Part shown: piece by piece, positions 2,722 through 5,739 of the stretch
Position numbering within the stretch: position 1 is the first letter of the stretch
Layout: the number at the start of each line of letters is the position of its first letter
Assembly: GCF_014621695.1 (NCBI RefSeq)
Contig: NZ_CP061281.1
Span: 7,006,001 to 7,070,000 of the forward strand
Origin: Streptomyces xanthii
GTDB taxonomy: Bacteria > Actinomycetota > Actinomycetes > Streptomycetales > Streptomycetaceae
Length of the DNA: 64,000 bases
Reading direction: 5' to 3'
The notes under the pieces: model-generated
What the model saw: only the letters and a program-made list of their open reading frames with translations
Databases searched by the model: none
What the model was told of the DNA's origin: nothing
Made by a program: the position numbers and the translations under genes

Positions 2722-3450
2722 TCAGCCCGCCTCGGCGGCCTTGACCTGCTCGGGGGTCGGCGCGGTGCCGCCCAGGTGCGCCGGCATCCACCACGTGTCG
2801 TCGGCGCCCTTGGGGCGGACCGGGTAGGCGCGCTGCGCGGCCTCGAGCAGCTCCTGCACGCGGTCGCGCAGCCGGCGGGTGATCGCGCCCGCGTACTGGT
2901 CCTTCGGCGCCTCGATGGCCTCGCCCACCCGGATCGTGACCGGGATGTGCTGCCGCTTGAAGTTGCGCGGACGGCCCTTCGTCCAGATCCGCTGGGTGCC
3001 CCACAGCGCCATCGGGATCAGCGGCACGCCGGCCTCCTGCGCGAGGCGCACGGCACCGGTCTTGAAGCTCTTCAGCGTGAAGGACTGCGAGATCGTCGCT
3101 TCCGGGAAGACACCCACGACCTCGCCGGAGCGCAGCGACGCGAGCGCGTGCTGGAACGCGTGCTCACCCTGCGAGCGGTCCACGGGGATGTGCTTCATGC
3201 TCCGCATCAGCGGACCGGAGACCTTGTGCCGGAACACGGACTCCTTGGCCATGAAACGGACCAGGCGCTTCTGCGGCAGCGCCGCCAGACCGTCGAAGAC
3301 GAAGTCGAGGTAGCCGATGTGATTGCTGACCAGGACGGCGCCGCCCGAGCGCGGAATGTTCTCCGAGCCCTGGCAGTCGATCTTCAGGTCGAGCGCCTTG
3401 AACAGTGTTTTGGCGACGCCGATGACCGGACGGTAGACGAGCTCTGCCAT
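2722..3450 (-). CDS. 1-acyl-sn-glycerol-3-phosphate acyltransferase (PlsC family)
   Basis: A 242-aa lysophospholipid acyltransferase. The HX4D motif is NHIGYLD (His44, Asp49) and the substrate-binding FPE motif is in VGVFPEATIS, with a following G-rich block. The N-terminus is amphipathic, consistent with membrane association; the role is phosphatidic acid formation or acyl remodelling. ATG 3450 matches the usual family N-terminus (MAELVYRPV). An in-frame ATG at 3561 would add a Pro/Gly-rich tail that spans an inverted repeat and a candidate operator, so I reject it. No good ribosome-binding site is visible. It is transcribed divergently from the thioredoxin. Confidence 0.88.
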   Translation of the reverse strand: MAELVYRPVIGVAKTLFKALDLKIDCQGSENIPRSGGAVLVSNHIGYLDFVFDGLAALPQKRLVRFMAKESVFRHKVSGPLMRSMKHIPVDRSQGEHAFQHALASLRSGEVVGVFPEATISQSFTLKSFKTGAVRLAQEAGVPLIPMALWGTQRIWTKGRPRNFKRQHIPVTIRVGEAIEAPKDQYAGAITRRLRDRVQELLEAAQRAYPVRPKGADDTWWMPAHLGGTAPTPEQVKAAEAG

Positions 3451-3478
3451 GGAGGGGGTGGACCCTTCTGATTGCCTG

Positions 3479-3508
3479 GGGAATCCGCCTCCTGGTGGAG
3501 GCGTTCCC
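3479..3508. repeat. Inverted repeat in the acyltransferase leader
   Basis: CGCCTCC (3486-3492) pairs with GGAGGCG (3497-3503) across TGGT, extended by GGGAA/TTCCC with a 2-nt bulge. On the minus strand it would be a hairpin in the 5' leader of the PlsC gene. It matches no riboswitch I know. Confidence 0.5.
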
Positions 3509-3512
3509 GGCG

Positions 3513-3530
3513 GTAAGTTACGCAGCCGTA
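3513..3530. promoter_or_regulatory. Candidate operator between acyltransferase and thioredoxin
   Basis: Two perfect palindromes overlap: GTAA-G-TTAC (3513-3521) and TACG-CAGC-CGTA (3519-3530). TACG/CGTA half-sites are typical of TetR-type lipid regulators in actinobacteria (family knowledge); that this site controls the PlsC gene is inference. Confidence 0.45.
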
Positions 3531-3678
3531 GGTTTTCCGGCTTGCGCAGATCGTGCCCCATGAACGGCCGGGTGACCAGTCCTGGTTCCTGCGCCGCGCG
3601 AGATCCTTGTCACGTGGGCGGGAATCAGCGCGGGCGTTTGCGCGCTGGAAAGAGGAACACGGGTGAAGGAGGAGCGGC

Positions 3679-4005
3679 GTGGCCGCAGGTGAAATGAGTC
3701 TGGGTGCCGAGCAGTTGGCGGCCCCGCTGGGGGAGCGGGCCACGCTCGTCCAGTTCTCCAGCGCGTTCTGCGCGCCGTGCCGGGCCACCCGGCGGGTGCT
3801 CGCCGAGGTCGCGGCCATGGTCCCGGGTGTCTCGCACATCGAGATCGACGCCGAGGACCGGCTCGACCTCGTCCGCGCCGTCGGCGTCGTCAAGACGCCC
3901 ACCGTGCTGGTCCTGGACGCGGCCGGCCGCGAGGTCCGCCGGGCGGCGGGACAGCCGCGCCGGGCGGACGTCATCGCGGCGCTCGGTGCCGCCGTCGCTG
4001 CGTGA
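3679..4005 (+). CDS. Thioredoxin-family protein
   Basis: A 108-aa single-domain thioredoxin with the redox motif FCAPC (Cys31, Cys34), where Phe replaces the usual Trp, and the cis-Pro region VVKTPTVLVLD. It has no signal peptide, so it should act in the cytosol as a thiol-disulfide oxidoreductase. The GTG start is chosen because AGGAGGAG (3668-3675) sits just upstream; a downstream ATG at 3694 lacks this. It lies beside a cysteine-regulated flavin reductase, which fits a thiol/sulfur context. Confidence 0.88.
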   Translation: MAAGEMSLGAEQLAAPLGERATLVQFSSAFCAPCRATRRVLAEVAAMVPGVSHIEIDAEDRLDLVRAVGVVKTPTVLVLDAAGREVRRAAGQPRRADVIAALGAAVAA

Positions 4006-4051
4006 CACCTGCCCCGCGCACGTGATGCTGCTCCCAGATGACGGAACGCAC

Positions 4052-4081
4052 TTGACTGCATGCGTCACGCATCGTCAGTCT
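4052..4081 (+). promoter_or_regulatory. Promoter and palindrome for the leader peptide/flavin reductase
   Basis: TTGACT (4052-4057), 18 nt, CAGTCT (4076-4081). The start point would be about 4088, exactly the leader-peptide ATG. A perfect palindrome ATGCG-TCA-CGCAT (4060-4072) fills the spacer and is a candidate operator. Confidence 0.5.
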
Positions 4082-4087
4082 GACCAC

Positions 4088-4168
4088 ATGTTCTGGGAAC
4101 TCCTTCTCTTCGAGCGGGTCCACGTCGACCTGGCGAGGTGCTCCAGCGCGCGCTGTCCCGGCTCCTGA
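4088..4168 (+). CDS. Cysteine-rich regulatory leader peptide (attenuator peptide)
   Basis: A 26-aa open frame, MFWELLLFERVHVDLARCSS followed by ARCPGS. The core HVDLxRxSSAxC is the signature of the small actinomycete leader peptides found upstream of sulfur-metabolism genes, where ribosome stalling at Cys codons senses cysteine (established for the family). Here the Cys codons are 18 and 23. The start follows a promoter spaced so that translation would be leaderless. The stop lies 45 nt before the flavin reductase start. Too short for default gene callers. Confidence 0.8.
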   Translation: MFWELLLFERVHVDLARCSSARCPGS

Positions 4169-4206
4169 CGCAGCCACGGCCCCCGCTCGCACCTCCAGCA
4201 GAAGGA
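4135..4206 (+). promoter_or_regulatory. Predicted cysteine-responsive attenuator structure
   Basis: GAGGTGC (4135-4141, containing the first Cys codon TGC) is perfectly complementary to GCACCTC (4189-4195), which ends 4 nt before the AGAAGGA ribosome-binding site (4200-4206) of the flavin reductase. A ribosome stalled at the Cys codons would open this helix. The pairing is seen; the switch is inference. Confidence 0.45.
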
Positions 4207-4213
4207 CAATTCC

Positions 4214-4720
4214 ATGACGGCCTCGCCCGATCTGCGCACCGCGCTCCCCGCCACGCCCGATCTGCTCCGCTCCGTCTTCCGGCAGCACGCCGCCGGCGTC
4301 GCGGTGATCACGGCGGCCGGTGCCGCACCCGTGGGCTTCACCGCCACCTCCCTCACCTCGGTCTCCGCGACACCCCCGGTGATCTCCTTCGGCATCGGAC
4401 TGGGTGCCTCCAGCTGGCCCACCGTCGCCGAGTCCGAGTACGTCGGCGTGCACATACTCGGCGAGCACCAGGCCGACCTCGCCGGCACCTTCGCCAGGAG
4501 CGGCGCCGACCGCTTCGGCGAGCCCACCCGCTGGTTCGAGGGCCCGCACGGGGTGCCGGTCCTAGAGGGCGTCCTCGCCTGGCTCGTCTGCAAGGTCATC
4601 GCGCGCGTGCCCGCCGGCGACCACCGCATCGTCCTCGCCGAGGCGGTCTGCGGGGACCCGGCCGGAGCCGGCCGCCCGCTCCTCTACCACCAGGGTCGCT
4701 TCAACGCGCTGCGCGACTGA
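4214..4720 (+). CDS. Flavin reductase-like FMN-binding protein
   Basis: A 168-aa protein of the flavin reductase (FMN-binding split barrel) family. Landmarks are FRQHAAGVAVITA, the phosphate-binding block GFTATSLTSVSATPPVISFGI and the C-terminal HQGRFNAL. It would supply reduced FMN to a partner monooxygenase. AGAAGGA lies 7 nt before the ATG. No monooxygenase sits next to it. The cysteine leader peptide upstream suggests a role in sulfur supply, such as desulfonation of organosulfur compounds, but that is inference from regulation only. Confidence 0.88.
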   Translation: MTASPDLRTALPATPDLLRSVFRQHAAGVAVITAAGAAPVGFTATSLTSVSATPPVISFGIGLGASSWPTVAESEYVGVHILGEHQADLAGTFARSGADRFGEPTRWFEGPHGVPVLEGVLAWLVCKVIARVPAGDHRIVLAEAVCGDPAGAGRPLLYHQGRFNALRD

Positions 4721-4770
4721 GAGTTCCCGGTCCGCGCGACTACGGAGCGTTGGCCATGTCACACCGCAAA

Positions 4771-4789
4771 GCGCTTGCTTAGTGAGCGC
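4771..4789. promoter_or_regulatory. Inverted repeat upstream of etfBA, candidate TetR-type site
   Basis: GCGCT (4771-4775) and AGCGC (4785-4789) flank TGCTTAGTG. AGCGCTTGCTTAG-type sites are common for TetR-family regulators of acyl-CoA metabolism in actinobacteria, which would suit an ETF operon. The assignment is inference. Confidence 0.35.
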
Positions 4790-4868
4790 GCAGCGGATGT
4801 ACTACTGGTGAGTAATATTTCGTTCGGAGCGCGGGCCGCCCCGACCGGAAGAGTCCGCTTCAGGCGCC

Positions 4869-4907
4869 TATGCTGCCTGCAAGAAGGCGAAGTCAGCCGC
4901 AGGCAGC
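4869..4907 (+). promoter_or_regulatory. Putative -10 box and leader hairpin of etfBA
   Basis: TATGCT (4869-4874) is a good -10 but lacks a clear -35. A 9-bp perfect inverted repeat, GCTGCCTGC (4872-4880) and GCAGGCAGC (4899-4907), would fold at the start of the leader about 45 nt before the GTG. Confidence 0.35.
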
Positions 4908-4950
4908 TGGGGTGCGCCCAGTACAAGACGATTGCAGTAGGAGAGCCGGC

Positions 4951-5739
4951 GTGAGCTTGAGGATCGTTGTCACCGTGAAGTACGTGCCGGACGCGACCGG
5001 TGACCGGCATTTCGCGGATGACCTGACCGTGGACCGTGACGATGTGGACGGCCTGCTTTCCGAGCTGGACGAGTACGCGGTGGAGCAGGCGCTGCAGATT
5101 TCGGAGAACTCGGACGACGATGTCGAGATCACCGTGCTGACGGTGGGTCCCGAGGACGCGAAGGACGCGCTGCGCAAGGCGCTGTCGATGGGTGCGGACA
5201 AGGCGATCCACGTCGAGGACGACGATCTGCACGGCACGGACGCGATCGGTACGTCGCTGGTGCTGGCGAAGGCGATCGAGAAGGCGGGCTTCGACCTGGT
5301 CGTCTCGGGCATGGCGTCGACGGACGGTACGGCGGGGATCGTGCCGGCGCTGGTGGCGGAGCGTCTGGGTGTGCCGCAGGTGACGCTGCTGTCCGAGGTC
5401 GCCGTGGAGGGCGGCACGGTGTCGGGTCGTCGTGACGGGGACGCGGCGTCGGAGCAGCTGGAGGCTTCGCTTCCGGCGGTGGTGTCGGTGACGGACCAGT
5501 CGGGTGAGGCGCGTTACCCGTCGTTCAAGGGGATCATGGCGGCGAAGAAGAAGCCGGTGGAGTCCTGGGACCTGTCCGACCTCGGCATCGAGGCGGAGGA
5601 GGTCGGTCTCGAGGGTGCGTGGACGAAGGTCGAGTCCGCGGCCGAGCGTCCGGCGCGTACCGCGGGCACGATCGTGAAGGACGAGGGCGAGGGCGGCAAG
5701 CAGCTCGCCGAGTACCTCGCGGGCCAGAAGTTCATCTGA
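4951..5739 (+). CDS. etfB: Electron transfer flavoprotein beta subunit
   Basis: A 262-aa ETF beta subunit. It starts with SLRIVVTVKYVPD and contains the AMP-binding region and the recognition segment DVEITVLTVGPEDAKDALRKAL. It ends in a typical extension that contacts the alpha subunit. ETF accepts electrons from acyl-CoA and other dehydrogenases. GTG 4951 is chosen because AGGAGAG precedes it by about 6 nt and the family N-terminus fits; the open frame back to 4870 includes the leader hairpin. It is followed after 59 nt by etfA in the same operon. Confidence 0.95.
   Translation: MSLRIVVTVKYVPDATGDRHFADDLTVDRDDVDGLLSELDEYAVEQALQISENSDDDVEITVLTVGPEDAKDALRKALSMGADKAIHVEDDDLHGTDAIGTSLVLAKAIEKAGFDLVVSGMASTDGTAGIVPALVAERLGVPQVTLLSEVAVEGGTVSGRRDGDAASEQLEASLPAVVSVTDQSGEARYPSFKGIMAAKKKPVESWDLSDLGIEAEEVGLEGAWTKVESAAERPARTAGTIVKDEGEGGKQLAEYLAGQKFI

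Follow-up and report, generated by a model that had tools for sequence, protein, structure and literature searches.

Does the short open reading frame (ORF) in front of a flavin reductase (FR) gene of Streptomyces xanthii act as a cysteine-responsive leader, and if so, how would it reach the FR ribosome-binding site? The question arises from an original prediction for the window (the whole stretch of 64,000 nucleotides analysed here, contig NZ_CP061281.1, positions 7,006,001 to 7,070,000), in which a cysteine leader was said to control this FR. We put at roughly 0.6 the probability that a cysteine-responsive leaderless ORF controls FR translation, with the resulting FMNH2 going to co-regulated organosulfur monooxygenases. 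The core idea of a sulfur/cysteine leader is supported because the leader is conserved, its orthologue group matches a known family and sulfur genes stand behind its paralogues, whereas the specific mechanism originally put forward (a GAGGTGC helix over the first Cys codon, and a palindrome) was not supported.

Conservation of the leader ORF and its promoter

The claimed 26-codon frame with HVDLARCSSARC and two Cys codons is present at the expected place (Table 1). The spacing of the promoter-like pair TTGACT/CAGTCT upstream of it places the predicted transcription start at the leader AUG. The spacer between the leader stop and the FR start is 45 nt long and holds AGAAGGA; no U-run is visible in it by eye in the window sequence. 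Rfam cis-regulatory RNA models gave 0 matches at E<=1 across positions 3000-5500 of the window.

Table 1. Coordinates of the FR locus, counted from the first letter of the window.
Feature	Position	Strand	Remarks
Thioredoxin-like gene, syntenic upstream neighbour	3679..4005	+	family matches, synteny
-35 element TTGACT	4052..4057	+	TTGAC 36 nt before the leader start in 74/78 26-aa leaders (35 or 37 nt in the remaining 4/78)
-10 element CAGTCT	4076..4081	+	6 nt upstream of the leader AUG; predicts a leaderless mRNA
Leader ORF MFWELLLFERVHVDLARCSSARCPGS*	4088..4168	+	26 codons; NF042934 match 22 bits (cut-off 27)
Leader 5' end	4090..4098	+	pairs with the FR start-codon region 4210-4218 in this strain's MFE
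UCCUUCU, anti-Shine-Dalgarno arm of H1, leader codons 5-7	4101..4107	+	
H2 5' arm (includes GAGGTGC)	4133..4141	+	pairs with 4189-4199 just before the SD in this strain's fold
Putative regulatory Cys23 codon TGT	4154..4156	+	TGT in 74/74 Cys23 codons of the genus set
AGAAGGA, FR Shine-Dalgarno, 3' arm of H1	4200..4206	+	
Flavin reductase (FR), putative controlled gene	4214..4720	+	PF01613, E 1.1e-34
etfB (electron transfer flavoprotein beta), syntenic downstream neighbour of FR	4951..5739	+	family matches, synteny

A search of the genus for FR at E<=1e-40 gave 104 matches among 121 genomes. FR orthologues were found in 103/121 sampled Streptomyces genomes and these 103 loci were used; one genome with only a 50% paralogue (G044) and second, weaker FR paralogues were left out. 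Conservation of the frame among relatives was one of the tests on which the original prediction had staked itself, and a short ORF 35-37 nt after TTGAC is kept at 95/103 loci, being exactly 26 aa in 78. The 78-leader set excludes the 8/103 loci without this promoter-ORF pattern and 17 with other ORF lengths. CAGCCT (30), CAGTCT (24) and CAGGCT (10) are the commonest hexamers at the -10 site of the genus leaders. H[VIL]DL stands at residues 12-15 in 60/78 of the 26-aa leaders and is missing from 18/78, 14 of which still have TGT at codon 23. The consensus of the 89 leaders of >=20 aa reads MPxELLLxGRVHVDLARxASARCPGx.

In sister genera of the family, the ORF at 36 nt is kept in 19/20 FR loci (L286 has no such ORF); these leaders mostly carry ADVD instead of HVDL, and in two of them (L271 and L273) no TGT Cys stands at the end. 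A second set comprised the 80 best-matching FR loci, all from Streptomyces, and overlaps the first set, sharing several genomes; its best match is S. longispororuber with 93%. It gave the leader ORF at 78/80 loci, 67 of them 26 aa, with close relatives dominating; among these 67, codon 6 is CTT in 67, codon 23 is TGT in 67 and H[VIL]DL occurs in 63. By these counts, the leader ORF, the promoter spacing and the C-terminal Cys are conserved beyond chance across the genus and in its sister genera.

Two other parts of the original prediction fared less well. The leaderless promoter had been described as containing the palindrome ATGCG-TCA-CGCAT; the promoter-like spacing is kept across the genus, but the palindrome, though present, was found in 1/95 promoters of the first set and 0/78 of the second and was rejected as a conserved element, being private to this strain. 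The thioredoxin neighbour is conserved in synteny, but nothing was found that ties the thioredoxin-like gene to the switch.

Leader peptides of this kind are already known in NCBIfam. The window peptide covers positions 2-19 of the 19 positions of NF042934 (cis_reg_atten, putative leader peptide), with a score below the curated cut-off, and 67/89 FR leaders (>=20 aa) match this family at E<=0.001; the best E among FR orthologue leaders is 8.7e-09, compared with 9e-05 for the window copy. Another entry, NF042936 (Ms4527A family Cys-rich leader peptide), is matched by 6/89. The FR leaders share with NF042934 the motif and the place of the terminal Cys, that is, a short ORF with [HA]VDL-x-R...C, and paralogues precede mostly sulfur genes, of which FR is presumably one. 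What the present analysis observes beyond the family match is FR as the putative controlled gene, an anti-Shine-Dalgarno inside the ORF and a codon rule.

The conserved cysteine codon is TGT

The first Cys (codon 18), which the original prediction placed in the GAGGTGC helix, turned out to be a feature of a small clade: it occurs in 2/78 26-aa leaders and the 25-aa leader L005 of the genus set, and in 7/67 26-aa leaders and L353 of the second set, chiefly in the closest relatives. The widely conserved Cys is that of codon 23. Besides the invariable TGT at Cys23 (Table 1), the third base of codon 23 is T in 78/78 leaders, against a background of 16 TGT among the 320 Cys codons that the FR and thioredoxin genes at these loci contain.

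The same codon was found at the aligned Cys of other leaders. All 26 leaders found at 30 loci of DmoA-like monooxygenases use TGT (26/26), as do all those found at 9 loci of close SsuD-like orthologues (8/8) and the 11 kept from this genome, three of which recur in the other sets. In a sample of the class, NF042934 was matched at E<=0.001 in at least 76/98 genomes, among the matches listed. From these matches 69 class-wide leaders (68 distinct) were obtained, 29 fetched automatically and 40 picked for genus variety; at least one leader is shared with the Streptomyces sets (L205 = L141). The conserved Cys is TGT in 69/69, against 20 TGT vs 81 TGC (20/101) at the other Cys codons of those leaders and 10 TGT vs 50 TGC in 29 mechanically chosen ORFs downstream of them. 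The search used a translated profile, which is unable to favour one codon. It was also observed that the codon following the regulatory TGT never starts with G (0/69 class-wide and 0/78 FR leaders, the latter having C in 76 and T in 2).

Two tRNA-Cys genes were called by ARAGORN in this genome, both with anticodon GCA. Since both carry GCA, differences in charging by anticodon would not explain the UGU choice. The bodies of the two tRNAs (L331, C1:4799983-4800055; L296, C1:6515208) are strongly different, and an isodecoder role in the UGU choice is conceivable. A UGU-specific tRNA was sought and not found in this genome, where ARAGORN called 66 tRNAs on loci covering 68 tRNA matches; one uncalled match (C1:3748439) has a UCC (Gly) anticodon by eye, and the other is a 104-nt tRNA-like stretch (L344, G000 C1:3840862-3840965; RF00005, 41.5 bits). 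The tRNA-Cys L331 has matches in 38/61 genus genomes at E<=1e-15.

A wider reading of the codon rule can be offered tentatively, at less than even odds: across actinomycetes, the nascent [HA]VDLxR motif would make UGU, never UGC, a programmed cysteine-dependent pause, so that a genome-wide sulfur regulon would be run by the ribosome. In Streptomycetaceae this regulon would have captured a stand-alone FR, and FMNH2 supply would rise together with organosulfur monooxygenases encoded elsewhere. If true, the third base of UGU would be under very strong selection though GCA, the only tRNA-Cys anticodon found in this genome, reads both codons. In the theory of selective charging of attenuator codons, differently charged isoacceptors read different codons, as far as the accessible part of that source sets it out (PMC1183508); because the theory works in this way, a strict UGU rule, if confirmed, would not be obviously predicted by it.

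Predicted pairing of the leader start with the FR Shine-Dalgarno sequence

The predicted helix H1 joins leader codons 5-7 to the Shine-Dalgarno (SD) sequence of FR. It was evaluated at 63 loci with the FR start <=70 nt from the leader stop, one of which (L072) was dropped for want of AAGG. In the remaining 62 Streptomyces leaders the mean ensemble pairing probability of H1 was 0.824, compared with 0.252 in synonymous shuffles; the highest mean of 30 shuffles was 0.340, a null in which relatedness among the sequences is uncorrected. At 19 sister-genus loci the value was 0.748 against a null of 0.169 (highest 0.247), with weak H1 in L276 (0.00) and L271 (0.37).

The third bases tell the same story of constraint inside H1: codon 5 ends in C in 76/78 and codon 6 in T in 68/78, while the third base of codon 7, outside the helix, varies (C 58, T 10, G 10). 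Codon 6 is the rare CTT in 67/78, with a background of 29/2219 Leu codons. No compensatory covariation was seen in H1, whose arms are nearly invariant. It should also be mentioned that Glu at leader codon 4 (4097-4099) is GAA in 61/62 FR leaders, against a background of 217 GAA/1380 in which GAG is dominant, a preference that H1 does not explain.

Six loci with a full leader (L035, L054, L066, L076, L081 and L096) have CTG at codon 6 and a weak H1 (0.05-0.55), which speaks against the pairing being general; they possibly use a different RNA switch. Moreover, the leader is lost, fused or truncated at some of the 103 genus loci. It is gone in L006, and its start is fused in frame to FR in L089, L090 and L094, where codon 6 is CTC (in L094, CTT stands at codon 5). 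The leader of L095, L099, L100 and L101 is cut to 13-14 codons, stopping at the FR start, and has CTG as codon 6. As a natural experiment this truncated group is weak evidence, because the six relatives with a full leader also have CTG at codon 6.

In the original prediction the switch was a different helix, GAGGTGC (4135-4141) with GCACCTC (4189-4195). The two are complementary and pair in this strain's predicted fold, but the sequence is private: GAGGTGC occurs in 1/95 leaders of the first set, this strain only, and in 0/78 of the second, which includes relatives with FR 92-93% identical, and GCACCTC occurs in 4/95 and 2/78 spacers. As a conserved switch it is thus ruled out, the conserved pairing being that of codons 5-7 with the SD. 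The region of codons 15-21 pairs with the 7 bases before the SD at 0.274, compared with 0.058 in the synonymous null, a pairing of which the GAGGTGC helix may be the form taken in this strain.

Paralogous leaders precede mostly sulfur genes

A profile search of this genome at E<=10 returned 26 matches at a noisy threshold, which also gave matches in 10/14 control genomes; at E<=0.001 no control genome did. The best 11 of the 26 were kept (to E 0.0116; five over the cut-off) and 15 were dropped. Ten of the 11 precede nameable genes, mostly of sulfur metabolism: a sulfatase, a ThiS-family/PLP-enzyme (cysteine-synthase-like) pair, a cysteine dioxygenase, a rhodanese, a sulfite/nitrite reductase, a dicarboxylate-symporter-family protein, FR itself, a DmoA/NtaA-family FMN monooxygenase (266 bits, cut-off 279.7), an SsuC-like permease (235 bits, cut-off 347) and an SsuD-like monooxygenase (TIGR03565, 407 bits, cut-off 518.2). 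An HVDY leader, MIPLVRRRHVDYVRVTSTGCRRSF (L117, G000 C1:7334617), stands before a 344-aa protein with no NCBIfam match at 1e-20.

The 29 first ORFs picked mechanically behind class-wide leaders include 7 rhodanese domains, 7 DUF4395, 4 sulfite/nitrite reductases, 2 luciferase-like monooxygenases, 1 PLP enzyme and 1 APS kinase. No HVDL-type leader turned up within 520 nt of the more distant SsuD paralogues L172-L192 (57-61% identity). Several of the sequence patterns by which leaders were sought, including the one applied here, had the motif as a requirement.

Because paralogous leaders mostly precede sulfur genes, FR may well serve two-component monooxygenases of organosulfur use. An SsuD-like or DmoA-like gene was found in 74/103 genomes with FR and 7/18 without (Fisher p 0.012), a DmoA-like gene in 51/103 and 4/18 (p 0.040), and an SsuD-like gene in 65/103 and 7/18 (p 0.069); uncorrected for phylogeny or genome size, this co-occurrence makes a weak test. 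If the proposed control holds, it would suggest a physiological function and partners (SsuD-like, DmoA-like) for an FR present in 103/121 genomes, and would extend cysteine-responsive leader ORFs to cofactor supply.

Constrained folding and a proposed mechanism

Constrained folding was used to ask which ribosome positions free the SD in the 62 leaders. In free RNA the unpaired probability of the SD was 0.11. One ribosome footprint at Cys23 left it closed (0.08), which is against a single stalled ribosome freeing the SD, and a footprint at the leader stop gave 0.09. Two stacked ribosomes gave 0.15, three gave 0.48 (30/62 leaders >0.5), and one initiating ribosome gave 0.44 (26/62 leaders >0.5). 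Only occupancy of the 5' end frees the SD, and then in part; the model therefore requires that ribosomes queue or otherwise cover the 5' end. A queue reaching from Cys23 to the start of the leader is proposed for this reason.

The following sequence of events can be envisaged. The FR mRNA would begin with the leader AUG, and an anti-ribosome-binding-site for FR would occupy roughly the first 20 nt, with codons 5-7 pairing with the SD and, in this strain, the flanking bases reaching the FR start codon. When cysteinyl-tRNA is sufficient, ribosomes would clear the leader, the helix would re-form and FR translation would be low. When it is short, a ribosome would stall once codon 23 (UGU) occupies the A site, possibly with help from the nascent [HA]VDLxR motif, and those behind it would line up as far as the 5' end; the anti-ribosome-binding-site would be held single-stranded and FR would be translated. 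FR would then supply FMNH2 to the SsuD-like and DmoA-like monooxygenases whose genes carry like leaders. In this scheme we infer the leaderless start, cysteine as the signal, the sign, the queueing and the FMNH2 partners. The sign of regulation is not fixed; that FR would be on at low cysteine is suggested by analogy with mycobacterial leaders.

The main rival is compatible with the same RNA. It replaces slow Cys decoding with nascent-chain arrest, in which R-[HA]VDL-x-R in the exit tunnel would sense a sulfur metabolite and stop the ribosome at UGU. We regard it as possible, though not as the expected outcome. The residues R at -13, D at -9, R at -6 and C at 0 are constant in 69/69 class-wide leaders (found by HMM and thus partly ascertained), the H-to-Cys spacing is 11 in 34/34 SsuD-like and DmoA-like leaders, and there is a single conserved Cys codon with no Cys run. 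UGU is strict although both called tRNA-Cys genes carry GCA, which also agrees with an arrest. However, motif conservation alone cannot be told from common descent, and the 18 FR leaders that do without H[VIL]DL mostly keep TGT at codon 23.

Transcriptional attenuation, Rho-dependent or intrinsic, would have leader translation govern termination and not FR translation. This is the classical leader-peptide mechanism, and rho-dependent termination is suggested for mycobacterial cys leaders in the accessible part of PMC1262725; yet we judge it unlikely here, given the short 45-nt distance from leader stop to FR start, the lack of a visible U-run and a conserved pairing that targets the SD itself. 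It would be more surprising still if the leader were a relic that formerly regulated FR and is now decaying and neutral in many species. Such decay would agree with the truncated, fused or missing leaders at several loci, with the absence of H[VIL]DL in 18/78 and with a window copy under the family cut-off, but it fits poorly with synonymous-site constraint at codons 5, 6 and 23 over 78 leaders and with an ORF at the same spacing in 19/20 sister-genus loci, even if two of these (L271, L273) have no terminal TGT. Control of FR translation by a cysteine-responsive leader is accordingly the reading that we prefer.

Relation to known leader systems

Polycysteine leaderless short-ORF attenuators of mycobacteria were reportedly described by Canestrari et al. 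in 2020. In these attenuators the ribosome-binding site of the next gene is sequestered by the leader mRNA. Mycobacterial leaders are described as cysteine-dependent attenuators in the accessible parts of PMC9031893 and PMC13236596, and publications on mycobacterial cysteine leaders go back to 2005, according to what is accessible of PMC1262725. As far as these partial sources go, the FR leader would resemble them as a short ORF, predicted to be leaderless from its conserved promoter spacing, with a presumed cysteine signal and a proposed attenuation of translation. It also resembles them in that the FR ribosome-binding site is sequestered by leader mRNA, here in silico. Unlike the polycysteine attenuators, the FR leaders have one widely conserved UGU and no Cys run, and the predicted anti-ribosome-binding-site lies within the leader ORF, at its 5' end.

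Other systems are more distant. The Rhodobacterales cysS uORF (uORFC-8-2) likewise has Cys codons in a short upstream ORF, but in the accessible part of PMC8632094 these are two tandem codons with UGC dominant, followed by an intrinsic terminator and a cysteinyl-tRNA synthetase gene. The amino-acid leaders of Streptomyces lividans are also short ORFs before the controlled gene, several of them leaderless; the eight given in the accessible part of PMC8079986 are for Leu, Trp, Ala, Ile, Met and Thr, with no Cys leader tabulated there. In contrast to a classical terminator/antiterminator attenuator, no U-run precedes FR by eye. In the freely readable literature searched, no report was found of the single-UGU form, the anti-ribosome-binding-site within the ORF or FR as a target. 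Priority for the UGU codon rule is not established, Canestrari et al. 2020 being outside the literature covered.

Some leaders link the single-Cys and polycysteine kinds. In L193, L195 and L196 an AVDLCR motif is followed by a Cys run; the leader of L193, ending ...AVDLCRVAGCCCCCCSC, combines both. The aligned codon of these three is also TGT, but it lies inside the run together with further TGT codons.
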